55,595 nucleotides of DNA, from NCBI GenBank assembly GCA_017444825.1, contig JAFSVU010000035.1, positions 1 through 55,595 on the forward strand. The letters run 5' to 3'. This document shows positions 17,059 to 55,595 of the stretch, piece after piece; the first letter of the stretch is position 1, and every line of letters starts with the position of its first letter. A model generated the notes under the pieces. The model was not told where the DNA came from. It made no database searches and saw only the letters and a list, made by a program, of their open reading frames with translations. The position numbers and the translations under genes are program-made. The DNA comes from Clostridia bacterium (GTDB lineage Bacteria; Bacillota; Clostridia; UBA1212).

Positions 17059-17111
17059 CAACGAACTTAAACAGTCTTTGCGAACTGAAAAATAAAAAGT
17101 AAAGAGTTAGA

Positions 17112-17310
17112 GAGGTGCCGCTCAGGTAATAAGTAATAGTTAGAGGGGTGCCGCTCAAGTAATAAGTAACAGGTAAGAAGCAATAGGGGCCCACGTCGAC
17201 CACGTTTCATCGAGGAGCGATTCTTCACGAAGTGAAGCCAAGTGACGAGATGCAAGGTGCGAGACGCGAAGGGGGTGCCGCCCAAGGTAATAAGTAAAAG
17301 ATAATATGTA
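17112..17310. repeat. degenerate intergenic repeat, GGTGCCGCyCAAGTAATAAGTAA type
   Basis: Three imperfect units with GGTGCCGC followed by AAGTAATAAGTAA-like sequence start near 17114, 17147 and 17274. A GC-richer spacer with a CTTCACGAAGTGAAG hairpin lies near 17223-17237. A second cluster of the same unit lies at 46884-46977. Both clusters sit 3' of a gene and just before a CCTGC/GCAGG terminator. Confidence 0.6.
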
Positions 17311-17315
17311 AGAGG

Positions 17316-46878: not shown

Positions 46879-46883
46879 AGGGA

Positions 46884-46990
46884 GTGCCGCTCTAAGTTAA
46901 AGCGGTGCCGGACAAGGTAATAAGTAAAAGGTAATAGGTGGCTGGCGCCAAGGGGTGCCGCCCAAGTAATAAGTAAATGTGCGAGGGCTG
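46884..46990. repeat. second cluster of the GGTGCCG...AATAAGTAA intergenic repeat
   Basis: Units with GTGCCG followed by AAGGTAATAAGTAAAAG-like or AAGTAATAAGTAA sequence begin near 46884, 46903 and 46955. They match the cluster at 17112-17310 and, like it, lie directly 3' of a gene for an exported protein. Confidence 0.6.
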
Positions 46991-47265: not shown

Positions 47266-47313
47266 CAGATGTCCAGGCAGATGTCCAGGCAGATGTCCAG
47301 GCAGATGTCCAGG
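47266..47313. repeat. 12-bp tandem repeat, four exact copies
   Basis: CAGATGTCCAGG is repeated four times without change, then decays (CAAATTTCC). As the unit is a multiple of three, open frames cross it on both strands (QMSR or DICL repeats), but neither frame has a convincing start site. It lies 90 bases left of invertible segment A. Confidence 0.85.
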
Positions 47314-47404
47314 CAAATTTCCGCGGTGAACATTCAATAAAAGCGGCTCCAATAAAAAAGACACAGTCTCACGCCATGTCTCAATAAGGTTTATTTCTAC
47401 CGCT

Positions 47405-47614
47405 ACATAATGGTTAATATGTAACGGTTTTTCTTTTCTTCAGCGGCATTATTGTATCAAATCAAATCGGATTTAGTCAATACATTTACCCAAATTTTGT
47501 AAAGCCGGTTGGAAATACATGGCGGACACTGTTCGGCGTTGCGTCAACGGCTTTCGAGCCCTTACTTGTTTACCTGGAGACAGAGGTAATATGACAACAT
47601 AATAACCATTATGT
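47405..47614. other. putative invertible promoter segment A
   Basis: The left site ACATAATGGTTAATATGT (47405-47422) and the right site ACATAATAACCATTATGT (47597-47614) are inverted copies matching at 17 of 18 positions. Each has arms ACATAA/TTATGT around an asymmetric 6-bp core (TAACCA in the right site), like a tyrosine-recombinase crossover site. The 174 bases between them carry a good promoter pointing left (47451-47480). Inversion would aim it at the gene at 47641, 26 bases past the right site. A much weaker rightward candidate (TTGTTT, 15-base spacer, TAATAT at 47587) exists in the present orientation. Inversion itself is inferred. Confidence 0.6.
47451..47480 (-). promoter_or_regulatory. 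promoter inside segment A, pointing away from the cassette
   Basis: On the minus strand TTGACT (complement 47475-47480), an 18-base spacer and TACAAT (complement 47451-47456). The -10 lies 28 bases from the left inverted site. Confidence 0.65.
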
Positions 47615-47640: not shown

Positions 47641-48129
47641 ATGTCAATCGCTATTGTTATCATCATATTGCTCACGCTAAACATCCTTTATCTCACGAAT
47701 TATTTCGGCGAGAAGAGGATGAGGTTTGTTGTTTCCATGCTTATCACTCTTTTCTGCACGATGATATTGTTTTCAATCTCCGTACTGTCGCTTTACGCCA
47801 CTTCTGCGGATTTCCCGGATTTTCAGACTATAAATCTGATACTTATGACTAACGAGAATGTGTCGCTTCTTTTCAGCAATATCGCCATCGTACCGGAATA
47901 CACGATTTTCCTTCTTTGTGCTATAGCTGCGGTGTTTTGGTTTGCGGCGCTCTCCACGACATTCGTATTCTTACACCTGATCTACACGATCACCAAAAGA
48001 GTCATAAAAGAGATCTCAAAAGAGAAAGAGACCGAGGAGGCCGAGAAGAAGCCCGCTAAGGCTATTGGCTATGCCGCGGTCATTTCTCAAAAACCAATGT
48101 TATTACTCGTCTGCAGGCTAAACTGTTGA
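47641..48129 (+). CDS. small three-helix membrane protein A with CRLNC C-terminus
   Basis: 162 residues. Membrane helices lie at about 3-20, 28-52 and 85-115, followed by a charged cytoplasmic segment (KEISKEKETEEAEKK) and a final hydrophobic patch ending QKPMLLLVCRLNC. Its paralogue at 54497 has the same layout and ends QKPILKLICRMNC. No family is recognised. It is always followed by a prepilin-like gene here (65 bases downstream), so it may be a chaperone, anchor or assembly partner for that protein. GGAG precedes the ATG. Confidence 0.65.
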   Translation: MSIAIVIIILLTLNILYLTNYFGEKRMRFVVSMLITLFCTMILFSISVLSLYATSADFPDFQTINLILMTNENVSLLFSNIAIVPEYTIFLLCAIAAVFWFAALSTTFVFLHLIYTITKRVIKEISKEKETEEAEKKPAKAIGYAAVISQKPMLLLVCRLNC

Positions 48130-48194: not shown

Positions 48195-50558
48195 ATGAAA
48201 TCGAATAAAAAAGCTTTTACGGTTGTGGAGCTCGTGGTTGTAATCGCAATCATCGCAGTCCTTGCTGCCGTGCTTATTCCGACCTTCGCCAATATCATCA
48301 AAAAGGCAAACATCTCAAAAGACACGCAGCTAATCAGAAACCTCAACACAGCTCTTGCATCAAGCAGAGCCGCCAACAATAACAAACCCCACCCCACGAT
48401 GTACGATGCCCTTCAGGCAGCGGAGGCCTTTGGTTACGACGTTGGCAAAATCAACGCCTCTGCCCTCGGCAACGAAATCCTATGGGATCAGGAGAACGAT
48501 GTTTTCTGTTACCTTGAAGGTGACAAGATCCAATACCTGCCCGAACTTGTAGACACTGGCAAGCAACTCGCAATAACCGGTGATACCAATAATAGACCCT
48601 ATCATCTTTGGAAGATATTTGACAATCTTCATCCCTATACAGAGAATGACCATGGCTTTTCCATCTACTGGAACGGATTACCAATTGATACCCTTGTTGA
48701 GCTTGATGGTGTTGGTTTTGATGCCGGAACCGCAAGTGTAACCAATATCAGCTATACAAACAGCAACGCTGCTAGGGATGTAGTTATTCGTACTAATAGC
48801 AACCTTACTACGTTAACAGTAAATGCTCCTAAAGACATAGTCCGTCACTACGATACAGCAGGTATCGTAAACGTGATTTCTTGCGAGATGGCCTCATATC
48901 ATGAGAATGGAATCGTATCTTTCCTTGAAGTTGCCGGTGGGCACATCGTTCTTGAAGAGACATCTAAGGTGTCAGCTGTTCACTTCACGGCAACAAATGG
49001 CGCATTTAAGAATTCGGATAATAAAACAATTTCTATTGATTTAAGCAAACTGTCTAAAGAGAACATGCCTTCTTTTACAAGAGACACTGTCACAATTGGT
49101 ACGAATGGTACGTTTGTTGCGGAAGTAATAACGGACAAAGCTGAATTTGTTTGGCTATTTGGCAATGGTATCAAGGAACAAATGGTTGTAACAACACAAG
49201 AAGGAGCTATTGCTGAAAACGGAACATTAAAACCTGGAATCACCCCAGGTGCTAAGGCAGGATCAGTTGCTGAACAAATAGCTAATCCAGCAAAGAGAAA
49301 TAGTGAAGGCGCACTTGTTGATGATAATGGGGATGAAATCGATGTTTCAGCAGTTAACTGGTCAAACAACAATGCACTAGTTGATGTATCAGAGATTGTT
49401 TATGAGCCAATAAAAACAAAAGAAGATGCAATTAACGAGAATGTTGTTGAGGTTATCACCACATTTGCACAATTAAAAGACTTTGTTGAAAATGGCACAA
49501 AAATCAACGCCATAATTGGGTCTGACTTTGATATTACTGGACAAATTGCATTCGATAGAAAAATTGTTCTTGACCTTAATGGTCATAAATTGAGTAATAT
49601 AACAACTGGTTCTAGACCATTTAATATTAATGCTCACGCAGATGTTACAATTAATGGAACTACAGCCGGCAGTGAAATTAGCATGCCTACTTCAAACATC
49701 AGTTCATACGGATTATTCTTCCTTAATCAAGATTGCTATACATTGAAAGATACAGCAAACGGAATTTATGGTCCTTCACTGATTTTGAATGGTGGAACAT
49801 ATAGTGGTACCACAAATAGTGGTGGTATGATAAAATACAAAACATTCGTAAGCAACATTGAGATGTATGGTGTTACAATGGTAAGCACTGGTGGAGGACT
49901 TCTTGCCGGTGATGGCTCAATGTCCGCAAATTATACTGGCCCTGATGGATACAAACATAAGATGTCTTATAATTTCGCAACTATTAAAGATTGTAACTTT
50001 ACACAAGGTATTGCTGATAATGGCGTTAACACAAATGTTGGTTTATCTATTTCTGGTGTATATATTAGTAATGGTTTAATCGAAAATACTACAATTCTAT
50101 CTGCTCATGGTAATGCTTTATATTTATCAAATGGCATTTCTGAAGTTAAAAACTGTAGTATCATTGTTACGAATCCTAACCCAACAGCAGACTGGTTAGG
50201 TTCTGCGATCGGTGTAGCGGCAGATGCTGATGTAACAATTAATGGTGGAACATATCAAGGACAACAATTTGGGCTTGATGTTTATACATCAAATGGACAT
50301 GTTACAATTAATAACGGTACATTTACAGGAACCACTGCCTTGAATGTTAGGAACGCAGATTCGTATACAACTACTGATGGCTTTGGAACTCCAAACATCA
50401 AAGTTATGAACGGAGCATTTAATGGCAGTCTTTCAAAGGCATCAAATACTAAACTAGAAGTTTTTGGTGGAACTTTTACAGCTAATCCAACTGATTATGT
50501 TGATACCGAAAATTATCAAGTTACTGGAAGTGGACCATACACTGTTTCTGCAAAATAA
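48195..50558 (+). CDS. prepilin-like protein A with long beta-helix C-terminal region
   Basis: 787 residues. The N-terminus is a type IV prepilin signal: basic MKSNKKA, then FTVVELVVVIAIIAVLAAV with Glu at mature position 5, and LIPTFANIIKKAN. Ala rather than Gly precedes the cleavage site. The first 115 or so residues match the paralogue at 55031 (TQLIRNLNTALASSRAANNN, FGYDVGKINAS, EILWD). The rest diverges: an acidic middle part and then (about 430-787) repeated short strands (DVTINGGTYQG, HVTINNGTFTG, KLEVFGGTFTA) typical of a right-handed beta-helix. Base composition shifts to AT-rich at about 48600, so the gene looks chimeric. AGGAG precedes the ATG. Confidence 0.8.
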   Translation: MKSNKKAFTVVELVVVIAIIAVLAAVLIPTFANIIKKANISKDTQLIRNLNTALASSRAANNNKPHPTMYDALQAAEAFGYDVGKINASALGNEILWDQENDVFCYLEGDKIQYLPELVDTGKQLAITGDTNNRPYHLWKIFDNLHPYTENDHGFSIYWNGLPIDTLVELDGVGFDAGTASVTNISYTNSNAARDVVIRTNSNLTTLTVNAPKDIVRHYDTAGIVNVISCEMASYHENGIVSFLEVAGGHIVLEETSKVSAVHFTATNGAFKNSDNKTISIDLSKLSKENMPSFTRDTVTIGTNGTFVAEVITDKAEFVWLFGNGIKEQMVVTTQEGAIAENGTLKPGITPGAKAGSVAEQIANPAKRNSEGALVDDNGDEIDVSAVNWSNNNALVDVSEIVYEPIKTKEDAINENVVEVITTFAQLKDFVENGTKINAIIGSDFDITGQIAFDRKIVLDLNGHKLSNITTGSRPFNINAHADVTINGTTAGSEISMPTSNISSYGLFFLNQDCYTLKDTANGIYGPSLILNGGTYSGTTNSGGMIKYKTFVSNIEMYGVTMVSTGGGLLAGDGSMSANYTGPDGYKHKMSYNFATIKDCNFTQGIADNGVNTNVGLSISGVYISNGLIENTTILSAHGNALYLSNGISEVKNCSIIVTNPNPTADWLGSAIGVAADADVTINGGTYQGQQFGLDVYTSNGHVTINNGTFTGTTALNVRNADSYTTTDGFGTPNIKVMNGAFNGSLSKASNTKLEVFGGTFTANPTDYVDTENYQVTGSGPYTVSAK

Positions 50559-50804: not shown

Positions 50805-51908
50805 TTACGACTTCGTTTTGTGTAGAAATTTACATCCAGTTTGGTGCGCTATATTCAATCCGTCGGCATAAATGTAAATTGTACTATTTGCTTCTTTGAT
50901 TTCGACATCTTTTCCTATATAATCAGGGTCAAGAGAGTATTTGCGTCTCTTGTAGGTGATCATAGACTCTTTAGAAACTTTTCTTACAACGGGCTTTGTC
51001 AAGTAGCTTCTTAAGATCTCATCCGCAGGCATTGGCAGCAGATACTCTTTTTCTTTTGTCAGAAGTTTGAACGGCGGCGAGCCGGTTGCATCAAATGCCT
51101 CATTGTTAATATCATTTCTCAATTCACTAACAATTTGTTCTAGTTCTTCGATTGTTGTGAATTCATGATTGTATGGCCGAAGTCTTTGCATAAGTTTTGC
51201 TAATGCCTCTACTTTACCTTTTGTCTGAGGACGATAAGCTCTGCACGTAATAATCTGAAAGCCAAAATCTTTTGAAAAATGATAAAACGTATCATTGATT
51301 ACAGCTTCATTGTATTGAGTTCGGCTTTGATCCACTACTGTGCGCATGTTGTCAAAAAGAATCTCTTTAGGAACGCCTCCAAAAAACTTAAATGCATTTA
51401 TCATAGCTGATAGGAGAGTGTCCTGGTTGCGATCAAGGGTTAACTCAATATATTTTGTGCGTGAGTAACCCAGCACCATTAGGAAAACATTAATTGTGTA
51501 ATCCATACCATCAGCCGATGTAAGTGTGAATTTTTCCTTCCAGTCCACCTGTCCTTGCAGCCCCGGATTTGTTTCAAACCGCATCGTTGCCTTTCTTCTT
51601 TCTGCGGTTTTAACAGTTTTGCAATACTCATTTAAAATGGTGTATTTGCCACAATATCCCTTTTTCTTGACGAATCTGTAAATAGCGGCGGCTGTACAAC
51701 CATCCTTAACTTTGTCAGCAATAATACTTTTGAAGCCATCAAGCTTTGATGGATGAGCACGTCGCTCGCATCGGTCAGAATCATCTCTTTCGTAATACCG
51801 CTTAACTGTTCTGTAATCGCAATTGTAAGTTCTTGCTACTTCAGCATAGTTAATCTCAATGTCTTGCTTCTTCATGATTTTTATCCGTTCGAAAATGTCC
51901 TTTCTCAT
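50805..51908 (-). CDS. IS21 family transposase IstA
   Basis: 367 residues. An N-terminal helix-turn-helix (INYAEVARTYNCDYRTVKRYYE) is followed by an rve/DDE integrase core: Asp in GQVDWKE, Asp in ILFDNMRTVV and Glu in KGKVEALAKLM. The C-terminal beta segment (KYSLDPDYIGKDVEIKEANSTIYIYADG) is intact. Start at 51908 with GGAGGTGA 5 bases upstream. The length is shorter than many IstA proteins (400-500). IstB, the ATPase partner normally encoded just downstream, is missing: after the stop only end repeats and the cassette A terminator follow. Confidence 0.85.
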   Translation of the reverse strand: MRKDIFERIKIMKKQDIEINYAEVARTYNCDYRTVKRYYERDDSDRCERRAHPSKLDGFKSIIADKVKDGCTAAAIYRFVKKKGYCGKYTILNEYCKTVKTAERRKATMRFETNPGLQGQVDWKEKFTLTSADGMDYTINVFLMVLGYSRTKYIELTLDRNQDTLLSAMINAFKFFGGVPKEILFDNMRTVVDQSRTQYNEAVINDTFYHFSKDFGFQIITCRAYRPQTKGKVEALAKLMQRLRPYNHEFTTIEELEQIVSELRNDINNEAFDATGSPPFKLLTKEKEYLLPMPADEILRSYLTKPVVRKVSKESMITYKRRKYSLDPDYIGKDVEIKEANSTIYIYADGLNIAHQTGCKFLHKTKS

Positions 51909-52160: not shown

Positions 52161-52223
52161 ATGAAATTTATAACTAATCCATTAAAAAAACTATTATTTG
52201 TTGGAGGTAAAATATGGAATTAA
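52161..52223 (+). CDS. 20-codon leader peptide overlapping the OLD-family gene
   Basis: ATG at 52161 preceded by a near-perfect AGGAGG. The frame encodes MKFITNPLKKLLFVGGKIWN and stops at 52223, overlapping the start of the ATPase gene (52214) by 10 bases. This arrangement fits a leader peptide used for translational coupling. It may also be a gene remnant. Confidence 0.4.
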   Translation: MKFITNPLKKLLFVGGKIWN

Positions 52224-53914
52224 AAAGTGTATCAATTTACAATTTTAGAAGTATAAGTTCTGCGGAAAGTATATTTTTATCTAATTATACTATTCTTGTT
52301 GGAAAAAATAATGAAGGAAAAACTAATGTTTTATCAGCAATTGGTATGGCAATCGAAACTATTGATAATCCACTAGCAAAGTATGATATAAATTTTTTTC
52401 AAAGGAGCTATCAAAGAGATTTTGAATATAATTTGGAACGAGATTATCCGGTTAAATTGAATACCGGTTAATATGATAAAATGAAACCCACAAAAATAGT
52501 ACTTGCTTTTTTACTTAATGACGATGAAAAATTAAAGTTTAAAACAGAATTAGGCCTTGAAAACAATGGGGACCTATGTGTTGAAATAACGTATGTTAAA
52601 AATGAAAAGTTTAATTATTATATACCGAATTTTCTAATTAAAGGGAAAAAAGGAAGAGGTGCTAGTACGTATAAAGAAAAAATACGAAGCGTTTTAAAGT
52701 TTGTTAGTGAAAATTTCTTTTTCACATATATTCCTGCTGTTAGAACATCAGACCAATCTATGGATGTGTTGCAATCTATAGTTAACAATAGAATTAGTGA
52801 ATTAAAAAACGATTCTGATTACTATAATGCTTTAAAGCTTTTAGAAGATAAAGAAACAAAACTAATGGAAGAGATTAGTTCTACGTTAACTCCAACCTTA
52901 ACTAAGTTTTTACCAGATGTTAAAAATGCTCTAATAACAACAACTTCTAAAAGGAGAGTTTATTCTAGGGCCATGTGGACTTTAATGATAGACGATGGAA
53001 ATAATACGGATATTTCATCAAAAGGAGATGGAATTAAAAGTTTGGCTGCTATAGCTTTACTTAAAAGTACTAGAGCAAATAAAGGATTTGTCGCAATAGA
53101 AGAACCAGAATCACATTTACATTCTGGTGCAATACATAAACTTGACGAGGTTTTAAGAGAAATATCTATGCATCAACAAGTATTAATTACAACTCATAAT
53201 GCCTGTTTTGTGAATCTTGCAAACTTAGAATCAAACATTGTTGTATCAAATGGTGAATGTTCTCCAGTACATTCTTTGGATAAACTTAGAGAGGAATTAG
53301 GTATATCGCTATCTGAAACATTGATTGTATCAGATAATATAATTGTTGTTGAAGGGGCTAGTGATATTAGAATTTATAAAAAAATATTATCAATTTTTAG
53401 TTCTAAAATAGAGCAATCATTAAACAATAAAACATTGTCAATTATTGCAGCGGGGAGTGCTTCAAAAGTATATTCATTGATGAATACCTATGAAAGTTGG
53501 TTAATTAAAACTTTTGCTATTTTTGACGCAGATGAATCTGGAAAAATGGAAATCGAAAATATGAAAAAAGATGGTAAACATAATTATGCAAAGTTACCAT
53601 TACATGGAAGAAACGAAACAGAAATTGAAGACATTTTGCCCTCTTATATATTGAACGAAGCAGTTTCAAACGTTTTAGGGATTAATATAGATAATGAAAC
53701 ATTTAAAAGAGATAAGTCTAAATTTTGTAAGAGATTGAAAAAGTTTTGTGATGCAAGCGGTTATGAACTTACTGACAAAGATAAAATAAATATAAAAACA
53801 AACATAGCTGATTTAATTGAGCATAACGACAACTTAGATAATAATTTATCTAAGGATGTAGTTGAAGCAATAAGGTTAATTTCAGAAAGAATAGAAAAAG
53901 ATTTTTCATTATAG
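52214..53914 (+). pseudogene. OLD-family ATPase/TOPRIM nuclease interrupted by one in-frame stop
   Basis: A single reading frame runs from the ATG at 52214 (GGAGGT upstream) to 53914 but has one TAA at 52469-52471. Before it are 85 residues with the FRSI start and the Walker A loop LVGKNNEGKTN. After it the frame continues with only YDK before an ATG at 52481, giving 477 residues. These hold the ABC-type signature region (SSKGDGIKSLAAIALL), Walker B (GFVAIEEPESHLH), TTHN and a TOPRIM domain (IVVEGASDI, FAIFDADESGKME). OLD nucleases act in phage defence. The break separates Walker A from the rest, so it is probably inactive unless the stop is read through or is an assembly error. Very AT-rich. 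Confidence 0.8.
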
Positions 53915-54212: not shown

Positions 54213-54470
54213 ACATAACATCAATTATGTAGCTTAATACGATCATTTTTTACATGGCTAATTATACCAAAAGACTCTGTGTTGCGTCAATATATTCAAG
54301 CGATTTTCCTCAATTATTTCAAATAAAAAACAATTATTAAAAGCCACACGTCATATTAGTTATAGTTATTCTGAAGGGTTCCAGAATCCAGCACAAAACA
54401 GTAAGTAGCGAAAAAAGCTTAGAAAAGCTGGCCTAAACACCGAAATCGAACAACATAATTGATGTTATGT
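54213..54470. other. putative invertible promoter segment B
   Basis: ACATAACATCAATTATGT (54213-54230) and ACATAATTGATGTTATGT (54453-54470) are exact 18-bp inverted copies, 222 bases apart. Arms ACATAA/TTATGT are the same as in segment A, but the 6-bp core is CATCAA instead of TAACCA. A strong promoter inside (54261-54290) points left, away from the cassette, with its -10 30 bases from the left site (28 in segment A). The right site ends 26 bases before the gene at 54497, the same distance as in A. Both segments share GTTGCGTCAA. Confidence 0.65.
54261..54290 (-). promoter_or_regulatory. promoter inside segment B, pointing away from the cassette
   Basis: On the minus strand TTGACG (complement 54285-54290), an 18-base spacer and TATAAT (complement 54261-54266) preceded by TGG, giving an extended -10. 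Confidence 0.7.
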
Positions 54471-54496: not shown

Positions 54497-54976
54497 ATGA
54501 TCTATATCATTCTCGCGCTGATCTCGCTCAGCGTTCTGTACCTAACAAGATACTTTACCCGGAAAGGTATGCGCGCCGCATCCGTAGCAATCGTGGCGCT
54601 GCTTTGCGTTGTCTTCACGATATCCATTGGCGTTCTCTGCGTTAAGGCCGTCCATCCGTACTACCCCGCGGAAGAGGAAATGTTCATCATTTTCTCCGAA
54701 AACGGGTTGGTTGAGTTATTCTTCGGTACAAAAGGGATCGCTCCTGAGTTTACGTTGTCCATTCTGCGGACGGTTGTGGCTCTAATTGCGGTCACTATCG
54801 GCGTCACGGGGCTTGTTCTACTCCACGGATTCTTCGAAATAACCAAGGCTGTCGTCGCTTTCGTCAAATCTTCCAGGCGGGAAACTACCCACACAATTGT
54901 AAGACAGACCGAACCATTGGGCTCGTTTAATACACAAAAACCAATACTGAAACTCATCTGCAGGATGAACTGTTGA
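54497..54976 (+). CDS. small three-helix membrane protein B with CRMNC C-terminus
   Basis: 159 residues, a paralogue of the protein at 47641. Helices lie at about 1-17, 26-50 and 84-118. A basic cytoplasmic segment (KSSRRETTHTIVRQ) precedes the terminal QKPILKLICRMNC. Sequence between the helices diverges but spacing, topology and the last 13 residues are conserved. It is followed by a second prepilin-like gene 54 bases on, in the same order as cassette A. GAGG lies about 8 bases before the ATG. Confidence 0.65.
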   Translation: MIYIILALISLSVLYLTRYFTRKGMRAASVAIVALLCVVFTISIGVLCVKAVHPYYPAEEEMFIIFSENGLVELFFGTKGIAPEFTLSILRTVVALIAVTIGVTGLVLLHGFFEITKAVVAFVKSSRRETTHTIVRQTEPLGSFNTQKPILKLICRMNC

Positions 54977-55030: not shown

Positions 55031-55595
55031 ATGAGAAATAAAAAAGCTTTTACAGTGGTTGAGCTCGTCATCGTGATCGCCATCATTGCGATCCTCGCGG
55101 CGGTGCTCATACCTACGTTTGCGAACATTATCAAGAAAGCTAACACGTCGAAAGACAATCAGCTTATCAGAAACCTTAACACGGCGCTTGCGGCAAGCAG
55201 AGCGGAAAACAACAACGAACCCCACGCCAACATGACCGAGGCCCTCGCGGCAGCGGAGAAGTTTGGTTATGAGGTCGACAAGATCAACGCATCCGGAACT
55301 GATGCAGAGATCCTTTGGGACAGCCAGAACGACCTGTTCTGCTATTTTGATGGCAGTGAGATCAAATATATTCCGGAAAGTGAGCTCATATACACAAAGA
55401 ACAACACAGATCCGAAGAAGCAGATCTATGACGTTGACTACTGGGTAATCAGAAAAGATGTAACAGACACAGGCGAAGATAACAGGGGCGAAGGCGAGCA
55501 TCAGATCTCCGCTATGTATTCGACATACCTGGCAGGCCTTGCCGGCAATGATGCCACCATCGTAATTACGAAAGGCCTTGACGTTGGTAATAATA
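55031..55595 (+). CDS. prepilin-like protein B, cut by the window end
   Basis: 188 codons are visible and the frame is open at the edge. MRNKKA then FTVVELVIVIAIIAILAAV and LIPTFANIIKKANTSKDNQLIRNLNTALAASRAENNN closely match paralogue A, again with Ala before the predicted cleavage site. Similarity fades after about residue 115 (from IPESELIYTKNN on), where B goes its own way (YDVDYWVIRKDVTDTG). So the N-terminal assembly part is conserved and the exposed part varies. AGAGG lies about 9 bases upstream of the ATG. Confidence 0.8.
   Translation, partial: MRNKKAFTVVELVIVIAIIAILAAVLIPTFANIIKKANTSKDNQLIRNLNTALAASRAENNNEPHANMTEALAAAEKFGYEVDKINASGTDAEILWDSQNDLFCYFDGSEIKYIPESELIYTKNNTDPKKQIYDVDYWVIRKDVTDTGEDNRGEGEHQISAMYSTYLAGLAGNDATIVITKGLDVGNN

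Follow-up and report, generated by a model that had tools for sequence, protein, structure and literature searches.

Does the short segment upstream of a membrane-protein gene in this contig act as a genetic switch and, if so, which enzyme turns it? The window, the whole 55,595-nucleotide stretch analysed here, is contig C18 of a Clostridia bacterium genome of 2.45 Mb in 56 contigs. A sequence-only reading had described the segment as an invertible promoter, apparently OFF, bounded by inverted sites of tyrosine-recombinase type and lying upstream of a pilin-like cassette, and had proposed a genome search for more such sites and for a tyrosine recombinase. Judging from the DNA sequence, we consider it very probable that this 174-bp element is a phase-variation switch flipped by an Xer-like recombinase of 281 residues, which is encoded elsewhere and would serve at least 12 other switches.

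Switch A and its promoter

The left site of switch A reads ACATAA-TGGTTA-ATATGT and the right site, inverted, ACATAA-TGGTTA-TTATGT. They agree at 17 of 18 positions; the sole mismatch lies in an arm and the core is identical. Together they enclose a short stretch that lies largely between genes. Coordinates are collected in Table 1. On re-reading the sequence we found the sites, their spacing, the core, the promoter and the gene start at 47641 all where the sequence-only reading had placed them. Its description of the cassette as pilin-like suits the second gene, which is prepilin-like, and not the first, which encodes a small membrane protein.

Table 1. Coordinates of switches A and B, their cassettes and the candidate recombinase
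Feature	Position	Strand	Remarks
Terminator-like hairpin	47358..47382	minus	Would meet OFF-direction transcripts; weak, not above chance expectation
Switch A, left crossover site (predicted)	47405..47422		Arms 47405-47410 and 47417-47422; core 47411-47416, TGGTTA
Putative invertible segment A	47423..47596		174 bp between sites
Promoter in segment A (predicted)	47451..47480	minus	TTGACT-N18-TACAAT, away from cassette
Switch A, right crossover site (predicted)	47597..47614		Core 47603-47608
Cassette A, gene 1	47641..48129	plus	162-aa membrane protein; paralogues in other cassettes
Cassette A, gene 2	48195..50558	plus	787 aa; type IV prepilin N-terminus, variable C-terminal part
Switch B, left crossover site (predicted)	54213..54230		Core CATCAA
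Putative invertible segment B	54231..54452		222 bp
Promoter in segment B (predicted)	54261..54290	minus	TTGACG-N18-TATAAT, away from cassette (OFF)
Switch B, right crossover site (predicted)	54453..54470		
Cassette B, gene 1	54497..54976	plus	159-aa membrane protein
Cassette B, gene 2	55031..55595	plus	Prepilin-like protein, truncated by contig end
Candidate tyrosine recombinase, Xer-like	G000:C8:37799-38641		281 aa, single open frame

The promoter of segment A stands out from shuffled sequence (p about 0.005), the best match in the opposite direction having p about 0.85, and the ATG of the first gene lies 26 bases beyond the right site. By promoter consensus only, switch A appears to be OFF at present. 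Inversion would map each position x to 95019 minus x and would therefore bring the promoter to 47539-47568, some 75-100 bp upstream of the ATG, from where it would read through the right site and drive transcription of both cassette genes, the first coding for the small membrane protein and the second for the giant prepilin-like one.

A motif-free search of the whole window for inverted repeats (arm score of at least 14, spacing 60-500) returned two pairs only, switch A and switch B at 54213-54470. Surrogates of the window gave no pair in six first-order Markov sets searched in this motif-free way and none in 60 searched by motif. Just beyond the left site of switch A, 47266-47315 holds a perfect 12-bp tandem repeat, CAGATGTCCAGG, in 4.2 copies.

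A genome-wide family of paired sites

If a single mismatch is allowed, the genome contains 29 copies of the pattern ACATAA-N6-TTATGT; the reversed control has 12. All except three of these sites (26 of 29) form inverted pairs, 64-224 bp apart; the 13 pairs lie on nine contigs and are a lower bound. The proposed genome search turned up 12 pairs besides that of switch A, as well as a tyrosine recombinase. Within every pair the core hexamer is identical (13 of 13), and all 13 cores differ between loci. The seven within-pair mismatches all fall in arms and affect six of the 13 pairs. One lone site, C46:187, sits 186 bp from the start of its contig, and the promoter that comes after it reads toward that same end; from this arrangement it seems to be half of a fourteenth switch. 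The other two, C28:399 and C43:22167, fall within open reading frames, and we count them as chance matches. A motif-free search of 13 stretches of this genome (184,216 bases, mostly chosen by the motif) found such pairs only and recovered 10 of 11 known ones; the missing pair, C42b, scored under the threshold.

Selection for distinct cores is unsupported, since column shuffles of the cores are equally distinct: the smallest distance observed was 1, and that of the shuffled sets was 1 in 1382 of 2000 and 0 in 596. Exchange of strands within a 6-bp overlap by tyrosine recombinases is established for Xer and dif. A hexamer that is free between loci and matched within pairs, together with the arms and the enzyme family described below, fits this kind of exchange.

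Consensus scoring found one strong promoter in 11 of the 13 segments (p 0.02 or less against shuffles). It points toward the cassette (ON) in C19, C29, C42b and C44a and away from it (OFF) in A, B, C36, C42a, C44b, C45 and C49; the same scoring recognized no promoter in C27a or C27b.

Segment orientation was judged by z-scores and end-anchored matches; gapped global percent identities were not used because free gaps raised them in both directions. Segments B, C29, C36 and C42b are related, their cassettes are homologous and their right flanks are 74-94% identical. By homology, segments B and C36 run one way, C29 and C42b the opposite way. Unlike pairs have more end-anchored matches of 60 when flipped than as they stand (B-C42b, 48 versus 21; B-C29, 44 versus 19; C29-C36, 38 versus 20; C36-C42b, 33 versus 21), and like pairs have more as they stand than flipped (C29-C42b, 49 versus 24; B-C36, 32 versus 20). 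In 2000 shuffles the mean was 16.3 and the maximum 30. This split by homology coincides with the ON and OFF calls from promoters, which use different information. C44a is flipped relative to C44b by z-score (7.2), but end-anchored matches (22 versus 17 of 60) do not clearly favour either orientation. The opposite orientations in the B, C29, C36 and C42b family, seen among paralogous segments rather than at one locus, are indirect evidence of flipping and come closest, in these data, to a natural trace of it.

A two-gene cassette, encoding a small membrane protein and then a large prepilin-like protein, follows 10 of the 13 switches (A, B, C19, C29, C36, C42a, C42b, C44a, C44b and C49), with the large gene of B and C42b incomplete at the contig end. 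Downstream of switch C45 there is only a large prepilin-like gene, and the genes behind C27a and C27b are of pilin size. The large proteins comprise 662-1098 residues. All 10 that were scanned carry the prepilin N-terminal methylation motif PF07963, to which one adds BspA-type leucine-rich repeats. Over their first 140 residues the median identity is 0.65, and over the remainder 0.23 (45 pairs from 10 proteins). The 787-aa protein is modelled with a long helix at its N-terminus; this model is of low confidence (mean pLDDT 51.9) and had no match in the PDB at E 0.001. The first protein of cassette A had no Pfam match. Contig C45 carries a type IV pilus locus that encodes prepilin peptidase, T2SSF and T2SSE proteins, and the small membrane protein has a homologue in this locus (hhalign probability 99.3). 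We infer that the cargo proteins are displayed at the cell surface.

In seven cassettes the small membrane protein ends in CR-x-NC, as do two C27 copies, and the homologue in the pilus locus ends in CRMNC; those of the C44/C49 subfamily end in (F/Y)LN. At the thresholds used, neither the small membrane protein nor a second copy of the cassette turned up in other genomes, whether in 30 from the order, queried with a single protein, or in 390 from a class sample, searched by profile with at most nine candidates scored per genome. A gene for a group II intron reverse transcriptase (L007:8134-9177, on C29) adjoins switch C29, and two tandem, divergent FtsZ-family genes (L011:5662-7999, on C45) lie directly upstream of switch C45. 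At C49, a flip-flop between two cassettes was considered and rejected: a fixed promoter already serves the cassette on the right, which is separated from the switch by a hairpin.

A candidate recombinase and competing explanations

The genome encodes two tyrosine recombinases with a PF00589 match and three serine recombinases. The gene for the 281-aa enzyme lies between threonyl-tRNA-synthetase-like and amidohydrolase genes. In its clade, whose 12 members all match PF00589, the residues R, K, H, R, H and Y are invariant; we take these to be the catalytic motif residues. The best structure matches of the 281-aa protein are Xer recombinases (4a8e, 5hxy and 1a0p). The other PF00589 gene, L016, also on C8, encodes an Xer-like protein of 324 aa, for which XerC and XerD models score best, below their cut-offs. 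In a tree of 22 recombinases, in which long branches are flagged, the 281-aa enzyme falls within a 13-row group of switch-adjacent proteins with 100/100 support, apart from L016.

Relatives of this enzyme connect it to the sites. A site pair lies just 3' of the gene in 11 of 11 close homologues (L045-L055) and in none of eight distant ones, the recombinase loci L063, L064, L066, L067 and L069-L073 being left out of this comparison. The arms at L048 are ACATTA/TAATGT, and at L056 the repeat is longer and differs in sequence. From named genomes we took the best 80 of 583 confirmed recombinase loci (L074-L153). Among these best 80, 62 have 450 bp or more of downstream sequence; a 3' pair is present in 57 of these and absent from L075, L095, L106, L113 and L141. 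The two cores agree in every one of these pairs (57 of 57); L125, which is shorter and has two tandem site copies only, was left out of the 57. Sites beside the same best 80 loci, L125 included, carry 1.8-2.0 bits of information in the arms and 0.02-0.36 bits at the four central core bases. Across 58 genomes, a matched exact pair occurs in 11 of 13 that have a close, near full-length homologue and in none of 45 that lack one (Fisher p about 3e-10), G024, with its 53-residue recombinase fragment, being placed among the 45. The two exceptions, G005 and G052, have a close homologue and no matched exact pair. Because these homologues adjoin arms of other sequence, arm specificity appears to drift within the family. 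Repeats with other arms stand beside close homologues at L155:8550-8828, L156:4202-4491 and L056:2409-2762, and offer a chance to map the residues that read the arms. The invertible-promoter reading of switch A is supported from three sides, by the 12 other pairs built alike, by paralogous segments lying both ways and by the recombinase-linked pairs in most relatives.

Three of 391 class-sample genomes hold eight sites each of a stricter pattern; as they also hold four to six close recombinase homologues each, they look like cases of one enzyme per switch. In G360 and G379, the additional sites are copies with the same core, located where contigs end. A tandem duplicate of the crossover site, with the same core, occurs at one end of a switch at L145:8853-8917 and in G360, G100, G120, G310 and G379.

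No site pair adjoins the gene of the 281-aa enzyme itself, so that it is linked with the 13 switches through its family. Since it lacks a 3' switch, we file it as a trans-acting variant rather than a typical member of the clade, and it apparently acts in trans. The arms are common to all switches and this is the only clade member found in the genome, from which we infer a single enzyme for all; the 281-aa protein is its likely identity. In the mechanism we propose, the recombinase would bind both inverted sites of switch A at their ACATAA arms, strand exchange would take place within the 6-bp core and the 174-bp segment would invert. The same enzyme would flip at least 12 other switches. As no two loci share a core, each switch would flip alone, giving a combinatorial display of surface proteins. 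We give roughly even chances to the fuller proposal that an orphan recombinase runs at least 13 independent switches, with the private hexamer as address and the arms for recruitment, allowing up to 2^13 states without scrambling of the chromosome.

Three other explanations were weighed against this mechanism. Real switches could instead be flipped by the housekeeping Xer protein L016, a candidate because the arms resemble the inner part of a dif site; in PMC2731167, Escherichia coli dif is printed as CATAAT...ATTATGTTAAAT around a 6-bp centre. L016 is also the only other PF00589 gene here. However, G002, G003, G004 and G007, which belong to the same genus and family, have an L016-like gene and neither a close homologue of the 281-aa enzyme nor an exact site, and the pairs follow the 281-aa clade (11 of 13 versus 0 of 45), which makes L016 a very unlikely flipper. 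Slightly easier to entertain, and still unlikely, is that the pairs are degenerate remnants: the enzyme would have lost its own switch, which relatives retain, and the 13 loci would be locked as a fixed set of ON and OFF states. The arm mismatches in six of the 13 pairs and the missing switch beside the recombinase gene suit such decay. Against it, the recombinase is one open frame with all catalytic residues present, cores are identical within all 13 pairs though free between loci, and close paralogues are found in both orientations.

Finally, the arms make each single site nearly palindromic, as in an operator, and the pairs might be bound by a dimeric regulator or form RNA stems that control the cassettes. 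An operator would not need an identical hexamer 64-422 bp away, yet one is present in 13 of 13 pairs here and in 57 of 57 among the best 80 of 583 loci elsewhere. Moreover, segments are inverted between paralogues and in relatives the recombinase adjoins the pair, so we regard regulation by operators or stems as highly implausible.

Relation to known systems and further features of the window

One close likeness in layout, by published description, is to the mpl (P35) family of Mycoplasma penetrans, in which many paralogous surface-protein genes are spread over several loci, most of them next to an invertible promoter, and inversion is mediated by a site-specific tyrosine recombinase (PMC2268961 and PMC8593674). 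There too, independent invertible promoters serve a surface-protein family. The mpl products are mollicute lipoproteins, whereas here the cargo is prepilin-like, the genome is one of Clostridia that also has a type IV pilus locus, and the enzyme comes from a clade whose members mostly act next to the genes that encode them. In Bacteroides fragilis, a single master invertase, Mpi, serves at least 13 scattered regions (PMC5903667). Mpi is described there as a serine recombinase with polysaccharide loci among its targets, in contrast to the tyrosine recombinase here. As in the Mpi and mpl regulons, many scattered switches share one site design (13 pairs on nine contigs); the likeness is one of layout, and the enzyme clade, the dif-like sites and the cargo differ from both.

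The sequence-only reading had also compared the layout with Clostridioides. This likeness is loose, because the cwpV switch of Clostridioides difficile is described, in PMC2784873, as lacking a promoter. That species has a trans-acting tyrosine recombinase, RecV; the repeats of its described switches are unrelated except for Cdi2 and Cdi5, whereas here the arms are common and the promoters lie inside. The sites recall dif in having a six-bp centre between ATAA and TTAT arms (PMC2731167). dif is one site at the terminus, whereas here two inverted sites lie near promoters and the enzyme clade is separate from the genome's own Xer. Nearest in sequence are the modules of gut Clostridia described above, recombinase plus 3' switch (L045-L055, L074-L153), with the same arms, a pair-matched free core and the same clade. 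Those modules place one enzyme beside one switch with varied downstream genes; here the enzyme has no switch of its own and 13 stand elsewhere. A gut-community survey lists new repeat motifs in Firmicutes_A (PMC11892184), and the ACATAA-arm site type may be among them. We found no report that pairs this site with an enzyme of the 281-aa type, in a literature covering subscription journals in part.

The system would be a tyrosine-type counterpart of the Mpi regulon in Clostridia, with candidate enzyme, sites and predicted switch states named. With the switches named, phase variation of the whole regulon could be read straight from sequencing reads, and the pair-matched free hexamer provides a natural test of whether crossover homology separates the switches of one enzyme. 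The recombinase clade together with the arms could serve as a simple marker for such switches in other gut Clostridia.

Between cassettes A and B the window holds an OLD-like ATPase/TOPRIM gene in two open frames separated by a stop (52214-53914), and next to it, at 50805-51908, a transposase-like gene whose product has rve and Mu_transpos_C_2 domains. A dispersed repeat with GGTAATAAGTAANAG and GG(A/G)GTGCCGC occurs in the window at 17093-17314 and 46881-46979; its GGTAATAAGTAANAG part has seven matches against 0.27 expected, and similar text also adjoins C42a, C46 and L016.
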